A stretch of 64,000 nt of DNA from Armatimonadota bacterium. Its GTDB lineage: Bacteria > Sysuimicrobiota > Sysuimicrobiia > Sysuimicrobiales > Humicultoraceae. Position 1 is the stretch's first letter; every line of letters begins with the position of its first letter. A program made the translations under genes and the position numbers. The stretch is from contig JAVHMA010000009.1 in the NCBI GenBank assembly GCA_031081715.1, forward strand, positions 1 through 64,000, written 5' to 3'. Positions 11,270 through 13,929 of this stretch are shown here, one piece after another. The notes under the pieces are model-generated. The model had not been told where the DNA came from and did not search any database. It saw only the letters and a list, made by a program, of their open reading frames with translations.

Positions 11270-11974
11270 CTACGCGAACAGGGCGCTGATCGCGCCTTCG
11301 GCCTGCAACAGCCGGCGCTTGAGGCCGGCCCCCCCGCGCAGCGAGTAGCCGCCGAGCCCACCGTCGCTGCGGACGACCCGGTGGCAGGGGATCAGCAGGG
11401 GAAGCGGGTTGCGCGCACACGCGCTCCCGACCGCGCGCGCGGCCCCGGGCTCGCCGAGCCCGCAAGCGATCTCGCGGTAGGTCCGCACCTGTCCGGCGGG
11501 GATACGGCGCAGCGCCTCGAGCACCTCGCGCTCGAAGGGCCCGACCCGCGCCAGGTCAACCGGACCACGAAATGCCTCGTGCCGACGCACGGCCGCCACC
11601 GTGGCCTCGGCCAGCCAGCGCGGAGGCCGCCCAGGGGTGACCGGCGCGGCCAGGTAGCGCGTCGCTTCGCGCTCGAACGCCCGTGCCGAGGTCGCGATGC
11701 GGGCGAACGCCGGCCCGCGCGGCCCGAAGGCCACGTAGAAGGCGCCGAACGGCAGCGGGAACGCGGCGTACCGGTAGCCAAACGCCGCGCCGGAGACGTC
11801 GGCGTGCCGCCCGCGGCGGGCCTGCGCCAGGGCGTCCAGGTCGCGGTCGGCGAGGCGCACTAGCGACGCGACGGGCCGGCCGTGACGGGTGACCACGACG
11901 GGCTCGCCGGCCAGCGCGGTGCGCAGGACCTCGTTCGTGCGGTTCTTGAGCTCTGCGGTGGAGACCAGACGCAC
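11270..11974 (-). CDS. Phd/YefM-type domain fused to O6-alkylguanine-DNA alkyltransferase
   Basis: A 234-residue two-part protein in one uninterrupted frame. Residues 1-45 (VSTAELKNRTNEVLRTALAG, then PVVVTRHGRPVASLVRL) match the DNA-binding fold of Phd/YefM antitoxins. Residues about 60-234 are an Ogt/AGT suicide alkyltransferase: acceptor Cys197 in PCHRV, Tyr166, Arg180 finger, Asn189 hinge and Glu226 near the end, all intact. It should remove O6-alkyl groups from guanine by irreversible self-alkylation. The start is GTG 11974, six bases after GGAGG; that site touches a perfect inverted repeat. The uvrC stop codon lies 30 bases upstream, so it sits in a repair gene block. The fusion suggests an Ada-like self-regulated repair protein, which is inference. 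Confidence 0.88.
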   Translation of the reverse strand: MRLVSTAELKNRTNEVLRTALAGEPVVVTRHGRPVASLVRLADRDLDALAQARRGRHADVSGAAFGYRYAAFPLPFGAFYVAFGPRGPAFARIATSARAFEREATRYLAAPVTPGRPPRWLAEATVAAVRRHEAFRGPVDLARVGPFEREVLEALRRIPAGQVRTYREIACGLGEPGAARAVGSACARNPLPLLIPCHRVVRSDGGLGGYSLRGGAGLKRRLLQAEGAISALFA

Positions 11975-11983
11975 GGCACGCCT

Positions 11984-12011
11984 CCATATAGCCCAGAATA
12001 TGGCTATATGG
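11984..12011. promoter_or_regulatory. Perfect inverted repeat over the start region of the fusion gene
   Basis: CCATATAGCC (11984-11993) and GGCTATATGG (12002-12011) are exact reverse complements around an 8-base AT-rich spacer. The spacer side adds a third ATATGG (11998-12003). One arm overlaps the Shine-Dalgarno GGAGG of the Phd-alkyltransferase gene and the other covers the uvrC stop codon. It is a candidate operator for the fused Phd domain. There is no U-run, so a terminator is less likely. Confidence 0.6.
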
Positions 12012-13929
12012 TATCACCATCGGGGCGTCCGTCAAGGGACTTGCCCGATCCGGCGCCGAGCGCCGCCTCCGGGGGTGGCGCGTCGCCGGCCAGGTGCGCG
12101 GCCACGCGCGCGGCCAGCCGCGGGCCGAGCACCTCGGCCAGGGCCTCGGGGGACGCCGCCCGGACCCCACGCACCGAACCGAACCGGCGAATCAGTTCGC
12201 GCTTGCGGCGCTCGCCGATACCCGGGACGTCGTCGAGGGCCGAGAAGACGATGCGCCGCTCGCGCAGCCGCCGGCCCGCGGCGTTGGCGAACCGATGGGC
12301 CTCGTCGCGCACCCGCTGCAGAAGCTGCAGCGCCTGGCTGGCCGCGGCCAGGCGCAGCGGCTCCGGCCGGTCGGCCAGGTAGAGCGCCTCGTGCTCCTTG
12401 GCGAGCCCGGCGGCCGGCACCGCGACGTTGTGCTCGAACAGCACCTCGCGCGCGGCATTGAGCTGGCCCCGGCCGCCGTCGATCAGGATCAGGTCGGGCA
12501 GCACCGACCATCGCGGTCGCTCGAGCTCGCCGGCGTCCAGGCGTTCCTGCTCGTCGCGCGCGCGAGAGAACCGCCGCCGGAGCGCCTCCTGGAGGCTCGC
12601 GTAGTCGTCGTCGCCCGCGGGCCCGCGGATGCGGAACTGCCGGTAGTCGGCCTTCCGCGCCACGCCGCCCTCGAAGACGACCATCGAGGCAACCGCCTCT
12701 CCCGCCTGGAAGTGGCTGACGTCGTAGGCCTCGATGCGGAACGGCGCGGCCTCCAGCCCGAGCGCCTCCTGGAGCTCGGCCACCCCCACGACCGCCTGGC
12801 CGCCCACCTCGCGCGCGCGGGTCTGTGTGAGGGCGAGCGCCGCGTTCTCGCGCGCGAGCTCGACCAGCCGGCGCTTCTCGCCGCGCTGCGGGACGAGCAC
12901 GTCCACCTTTCCCCCGCGGCGCTCGCCCAGCCAGGCCGCGAGCACCGCGGCGTCGGGCAGCTCGACGTCGGTGAGAATCTCACGTGGCAGCACGGGCAGG
13001 TCGGCGTAGTGCCGCGCGAGCGCCTGAGAGAGCAGCTCGCCGGCCTCCAACCCCCGTGCCCCGCGGACGAGCAGGTGCTGCTGGTCCTGGATGCGGCCGC
13101 CGCGAATGGTGATCAGCTCCACGCACGCCAAATCGCCCGACTGCGCCACGGCGGCGATGTCGCGGTCCTCGAGCCCGGTGGTCGCGATGCGCTGCCGCTC
13201 GGCGATCGCCTCCATCGCCTGGATCTGGTCGCGGAGCTGCGCCGCGCGCTCGAACTGCAGCGCATCGGCGGCCGCAGCCATCTCGGCGCGGAGTTCGTCG
13301 AGCAGGCTGGCCTGGCGGCCCTCCAGGAACAGGGCGGCCTGGCGCACCTGCCCGGCGTAGGCCTCGGCCGTGGCGCCCCAGGCCACGCAAGGTGCCGTGC
13401 ACAGACCCATGTCGTAGTCCAGGCACGGCCGCGGGAGGTCACCCCGGATCTCGATCTGGCAGGTCCGCAGCTTGAAGAGCCGGCGGATCGTCCGGATCGT
13501 CCGGCCCACGAGCTTGGGCTCGTGGTAGGGATACGGGCCGAAGTAGCGCGCGCCGTCGCGCACGATCTTGCGCGTCATCACGATGCGGGGGAACGGCTCG
13601 GCGGTCAGCTTCACGTACGGATAGGCCTTGTCGTCCGCCATCCGGATGTTGTACGGCGGCTGATGCTGCTTGATCAGGTTGGTCTCGAGGATGAGGGCCT
13701 CGACCTCGTTGGCGGTGACGATCGTGTCCACGTGAACGATGCGCGGGACCAGGACCCGGAGACGCGGATTGGTGGCCGCGTCGGGGTCGTGAAAGTACTG
13801 CCGCACACGCGCGCGCAGCGAGGCCGCCTTGCCAACGTAGAGCACGCGGCCGCCGGCGTCCCGGAACAGGTAGACGCCCGGACGCGCCGGCAGCAGCCGG
13901 AGGGTCGCCTGGAGCGCCTCGGCGGCCAC
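12004..13929 (-). CDS. uvrC: Excinuclease ABC subunit C
   Basis: A 641-residue UvrC, the nuclease that makes both incisions in nucleotide excision repair. The GIY-YIG domain is at the N-terminus (PGVYLFRDAGGRVLYVGKAA). A UvrB-contact helix lies near residue 210 (AADALQFERAAQLRDQIQAM), then the RNase H-like 5'-incision domain (YDVSHFQAGEAVASMVVF, DLILIDGGRGQLNAA) and C-terminal helix-hairpin-helix (DDVPGIGERRKRELIRRFG). The start is GTG 13929, four bases after the uvrA stop, with no obvious Shine-Dalgarno sequence, so coupling to uvrA is likely. Confidence 0.97.
   Translation of the reverse strand: MAAEALQATLRLLPARPGVYLFRDAGGRVLYVGKAASLRARVRQYFHDPDAATNPRLRVLVPRIVHVDTIVTANEVEALILETNLIKQHQPPYNIRMADDKAYPYVKLTAEPFPRIVMTRKIVRDGARYFGPYPYHEPKLVGRTIRTIRRLFKLRTCQIEIRGDLPRPCLDYDMGLCTAPCVAWGATAEAYAGQVRQAALFLEGRQASLLDELRAEMAAAADALQFERAAQLRDQIQAMEAIAERQRIATTGLEDRDIAAVAQSGDLACVELITIRGGRIQDQQHLLVRGARGLEAGELLSQALARHYADLPVLPREILTDVELPDAAVLAAWLGERRGGKVDVLVPQRGEKRRLVELARENAALALTQTRAREVGGQAVVGVAELQEALGLEAAPFRIEAYDVSHFQAGEAVASMVVFEGGVARKADYRQFRIRGPAGDDDYASLQEALRRRFSRARDEQERLDAGELERPRWSVLPDLILIDGGRGQLNAAREVLFEHNVAVPAAGLAKEHEALYLADRPEPLRLAAASQALQLLQRVRDEAHRFANAAGRRLRERRIVFSALDDVPGIGERRKRELIRRFGSVRGVRAASPEALAEVLGPRLAARVAAHLAGDAPPPEAALGAGSGKSLDGRPDGDTI

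Follow-up and report, generated by a model that had tools for sequence, protein, structure and literature searches.

Based on the computational analysis of a 64-kb stretch of DNA (referred to as the window), we propose that a perfect inverted repeat between uvrC and phd::ogt, a gene encoding a Phd/YefM-alkyltransferase fusion, is very probably the operator of an autorepressed promoter. The fusion's own Phd/YefM domain is predicted to bind there and to repress its own gene, the pair having probably been captured from a phd-relE module. A sigma-70 promoter in the 3' end of uvrC would drive phd::ogt, and two dimers of the N-terminal Phd/YefM domain would occupy two adjacent 8-bp palindromes. The bound dimers would cover the -10 and the start site, and the alkyltransferase would thus repress its own transcription, as an antitoxin does with its toxin-antitoxin operon. 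Repressor and operator would have been captured as a pair from a toxin-antitoxin module of the phd-relE type, with the toxin-neutralising tail replaced by the alkyltransferase. We infer the binding, the dimer stoichiometry, the repression and the direction of capture from sequence comparison. The positions of the features are collected in the table.

Table. Features of the uvrC and phd::ogt intergenic region and the genes around it (positions in the window)
Feature	Position	Strand	Description
uvrC	12004..13929	-	last codons, with the stop TAG, extend into the putative operator
-35 hexamer (predicted)	12030..12035	-	TTGACG; 16-bp spacer to the -10; inside the 3' end of uvrC
-10 hexamer (predicted)	12008..12013	-	TACCAT; shares bases with the outer CCAT of the repeat
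Putative 28-bp operator	11984..12011	.	the inverted repeat; minus strand reads CCAT-ATAGCCAT-ATTC-TGGGCTAT-ATGG; conserved upstream of orthologous fusions
Putative Phd half-site 1	12000..12007	-	ATAGCCAT; near-palindromic 8-mer directly after the -10; fits ATRGCYAT
Putative Phd half-site 2	11988..11995	-	TGGGCTAT; centre 12 bp from that of half-site 1; two mismatches to ATRGCYAT
Ribosome binding site	11981..11985	-	GGAGG; 6 nt before the GTG start; read from the sequence
phd::ogt fusion gene	11270..11974	-	234 aa; Phd/YefM residues 1-43, O6-alkylguanine-DNA alkyltransferase residues 146-228

The repeat has two perfect 10-bp arms, CCATATAGCC (11984-11993) and GGCTATATGG (12002-12011), around the 8-bp spacer CAGAATAT, exactly as an earlier, sequence-only reading of this DNA had described it. 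That reading also pointed to a third copy of ATATGG, which is present at 11998-12003, and to an AT-rich repeat in a very GC-rich region; the GC content is 43% (by count) for the 28 bp compared to 72% for the window. When the 64-kb window was scanned for inverted repeats (arms of at least 10 bp, spacer of at most 20 bp), this was the sole perfect one with at least five A/T per arm, compared to an expectation of 0.025 such A/T-holding repeats per window in composition-matched first-order Markov sequences. The inverted repeat is genuine and does not arise by chance. With up to three mismatches allowed, its pattern occurred once in the window, compared to none in 100 shuffles, and once in the 2.98-Mb draft genome; this single copy rules out a dispersed repeat or mobile element. 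The repeat bridges the uvrC stop and the ribosome binding site as had been claimed: one arm contains the stop TAG (12006-12004, minus strand) and the GGAGG opens with the GG that closes the other arm. Positions 12004-12011 inside the putative operator encode the end of uvrC (codon ATA and the stop), and the uvrC reading frame also traverses the predicted promoter of phd::ogt.

A promoter scan found TTGACG-16-TACCAT, of the sigma-70 type (12035-12008, minus strand), as the only promoter-like site in 300 bp, with a mean of 0.0 in shuffled sequences. The transcript start predicted from this -10 lies at about 12001, inside the repeat, and the GTG start codon follows 9 bp past the repeat. The repeat resolves as two tandem 8-bp palindromes (consensus ATRGCYAT-N4-ATRGCYAT) that abut the -10 and have their centres 12 bp apart. 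The operator of E. coli YefM (yefM-yoeB) likewise has two palindromes 12 bp apart, one of them overlapping the -10 (PMC4803016). In its layout the site thus has the paired palindromes overlapping the promoter that characterise Phd/YefM systems, and binding there is predicted. The fusion shares the Phd/YefM N-terminal domain with both yefM-yoeB and P1 phd-doc, but the core here is RGCY and not TGTACA, an alkyltransferase stands in for the toxin-binding tail, and an adjacent toxin gene is lacking.

The Phd/YefM domain at residues 1-43 was recognised by PF02604 (35.3 bits, cut-off 29.8) and TIGR01552 (37.4 bits, cut-off 20.8). The Phd profile score is modest and the alignment covers only positions 1-44 of the 74 in the profile; as the match ends there, the toxin-binding part is missing from the fusion. 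The C-terminal toxin-neutralising segment of Phd/YefM antitoxins is absent, and the alkyltransferase occupies the rest of the protein. This second domain is an Ogt/MGMT alkyltransferase (PF01035, 111.4 bits, cut-off 27) with the active-site motif PCHRV at 196-200, and Cys197 is invariant in 16 fusions. No cognate toxin gene was found next to the fusion, which is flanked by uvrC and an ABC ATPase gene; with no toxin gene in the operon, the locus lacks this feature of type II toxin-antitoxin systems. Neither the Ada zinc domain (PF02805) nor an AraC-type HTH was among the Pfam matches of the fusion protein. An AlphaFold model made from 4 sequences (pLDDT 58) was too weak to use.

The sequence-only reading had suggested looking for the same repeat upstream of orthologous fusions, and we searched 43 genomes of the same phylum for them. 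Nine genomes from f1, the family of the window, and seven from family f3 carry the fusion, and two damaged copies were found besides: in G018 the Phd part has a frameshift, and in G013 it has decayed. About 85,000 species genomes were also scanned by pattern, at a reach limited to close relatives, and yielded four full-length fusions (L008-L011), whose upstream sequences match genomes within the 43-genome set, and none outside the phylum. A version of the repeat preceded all 16 intact fusions, despite differing neighbours and start-codon distances. Mismatches to ATRGCYAT-N4-ATRGCYAT, counted for the 16 intact fusions and the frameshifted one, numbered zero in eight, two or three in eight, and four in one; the eight perfect sites are in f3, and f1 has two or three mismatches, with four in G002. 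At the same loci, 2085 random windows of 140 nt gave a background of four to nine mismatches, and the regions upstream of 12 alkyltransferases without Phd had four to seven. Among the five genomes of the window's closest group, pairwise identity was 90% over the 28 bp but fell to 52% over the 60 nt that lie upstream of them and to 63% over the leader.

In most relatives the -35 is TTGACA or TTGACG and the -10 abuts or overlaps the operator or sits within 10 nt of it. The repeat starts 33-99 nt before the start codon in these relatives, often clear of the ribosome binding site, and uvrC lies upstream of the fusion in some and was not found upstream in others. The repeat thus tracks the promoter and the fusion gene, not the ribosome binding site or uvrC, and a design centred on its overlap with the ribosome binding site in the window is not supported.

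Some variation in the operator was observed among the relatives. Two f1 genomes (L029, L031) have three tandem half-sites in 12-bp steps upstream of the fusion. G002 (L032), with a strongly degenerate operator, has a degenerate triple (AAGACTAT / ATGGTCTT / CTGTCTAT) in which the half-site cores are altered too, and it is the sole fusion in which the near-invariant Asn11 of Phd is changed (to Ala); as a single case, this is a possible co-evolution of Asn11 and the cores. In G013 (L041) the Phd part is truncated and decayed, the operator is decayed and the -35 is not recognisable, and repressor domain and site were apparently lost jointly.

Additionally, the genomes were scanned for further copies of the site, which the sequence-only reading expected might define a regulon. 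The core ATAGC-N10-GCTAT gave 27 forward matches in the 43 genomes, 12 of them at fusions; the remaining 15 compare with 38 for the reversed control and are therefore no excess. A multi-gene regulon was rejected, as the extra copies were no commoner than the control and each genome has a single site. Lack of conservation, or many stray copies, had been named as observations that would speak against the repeat as a regulatory site; neither was found.

Outside the fusions, the 43 genomes contained the consensus with zero mismatches at one locus only, in G011 (L054) of a third family, where a standalone phd gene and then a RelE-like gene lie downstream of it. The exact consensus was also found at a Deltaproteobacterial phd-relE pair (L024). 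RelE-like labels come from inspection of the translations rather than from profile matches. Further phd genes came from 297 genomes sampled from the phylum of that bacterium. Standalone phd genes of the NTVELKN type (L024/L118, L120, L121) had the operator with zero or one mismatch, whereas those of the NVRELKN type (L123, L124, L126) had GTAGCTAC-type half-sites, likewise 12 bp apart; L023 (NTRELKN) had GAAGCTAT-N4-GTAGCTAC, and more distant Phd types had other palindromes. The operator thus goes with the Phd N-terminus across phyla, whatever is attached to it. Val or Ala at Phd residue 7 goes with A..T outer bases (ATRGCYAT; L118, L120, L121) and Arg mostly with G..C (GTAGCTAC; L123, L124, L126, L023). 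Residue 7 and the outer bases form a candidate recognition code for Phd/YefM domains, seen in few independent cases. A plasmid search with a standalone Phd found nothing.

The window's genome has four other phd genes (L003, L004, L006, L007), each followed by an ORF that by eye is PIN/VapC-like. The L006 promoter carries a perfect palindrome with 9-bp arms. At first sight its spacing is also 12 bp, but the distance between the GC cores is 10 bp, and we did not count it as the same operator.

The repeat could instead act in RNA, as a 10-bp stem that hides the ribosome binding site in uvrC read-through mRNA and lowers translation of the alkyltransferase. The window's repeat gives a stable hairpin (-16.8 kcal/mol, z -2.3) with its 3' arm in contact with the GGAGG, but the stability is not conserved (z -0.1 in L010) and the repeat of the relatives begins as far as 99 nt before the start codon, often off the ribosome binding site. 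RNA from the predicted start inside the repeat does not form the hairpin, the half-sites tend to be individually palindromic, for which a hairpin has no need, and there was no Rfam match. We consider this reading improbable. An intrinsic terminator of uvrC, suggested by a stem-loop right at the stop codon, is scarcely credible, as there is neither a U-tract nor a terminator call and the repeat is equally conserved where uvrC was not found upstream. On these grounds both readings were rejected.

It is also highly improbable that the site serves a different, unlinked regulator, such as a damage-response repressor. The identity of the binder is not provable from sequence alone, but the same operator stands at unrelated phd toxin-antitoxin genes in other phyla, its outer bases differ according to the Phd N-terminus, and one site per genome means no wider regulon. 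The regulator at the repeat, which the sequence-only reading did not name, is in all likelihood the fusion protein. That reading had binding block transcription or translation and leave uvrC unaffected. Our analysis supports a repressor-type site and a block of transcription; a block of the ribosome binding site is less likely, as the repeat has no conserved position relative to that site and the transcript is predicted to begin within the repeat. Sparing of uvrC is plausible, although read-through from uvrC could meet a roadblock in the bound repressor.

Like the fusion, E. coli Ada joins a DNA-binding domain to an alkyltransferase and has its own gene as a target, which for the fusion is presumed. 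Ada is an activator that is switched on by methylation (PMC10779285), whereas the fusion is a predicted repressor with a single site, and the Ada zinc domain is absent from both the protein and the window's genome. PF02805 was absent in 21 of 21 f1 and f3 genomes and present in 14 of the 22 others, the 43 genomes being related and the counts thus not independent; the fusion may take Ada's place in these two families. AGT-EndoV and other alkyltransferase fusions likewise combine the enzyme with another domain, but their partners are nuclease or histone-like, and the word antitoxin is absent from the review that describes them (PMC10779285). We found no paper on Phd, antitoxin and alkyltransferase together in the open-access literature, which is no proof of novelty.

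Alkyltransferases are suicide enzymes that are used once, and a repressor doubling as such a consumable enzyme would make a simple homeostat. We tentatively suggest, as a doubtful but possible extension, that the fusion senses its own consumption: the repressor would be removed when Cys197 is alkylated or when damaged DNA sequesters the protein, and the gene would be derepressed in proportion to the enzyme used. Alkylated alkyltransferases have been reported to be destabilised and degraded (PMC7216122). Speculatively, if alkylation also inactivated and destabilised the fusion, enzyme use would lift the repression and replace the enzyme.

The locus probably represents a toxin-antitoxin repressor-operator pair that was transferred whole to a DNA-repair gene, and it suggests a non-Ada route for coupling the alkyltransferase level to need. 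The series of operators offers a candidate DNA-recognition code for Phd/YefM domains. If true, consumption sensing would be the negative-control counterpart of the positive adaptive response of Ada, made of toxin-antitoxin parts.
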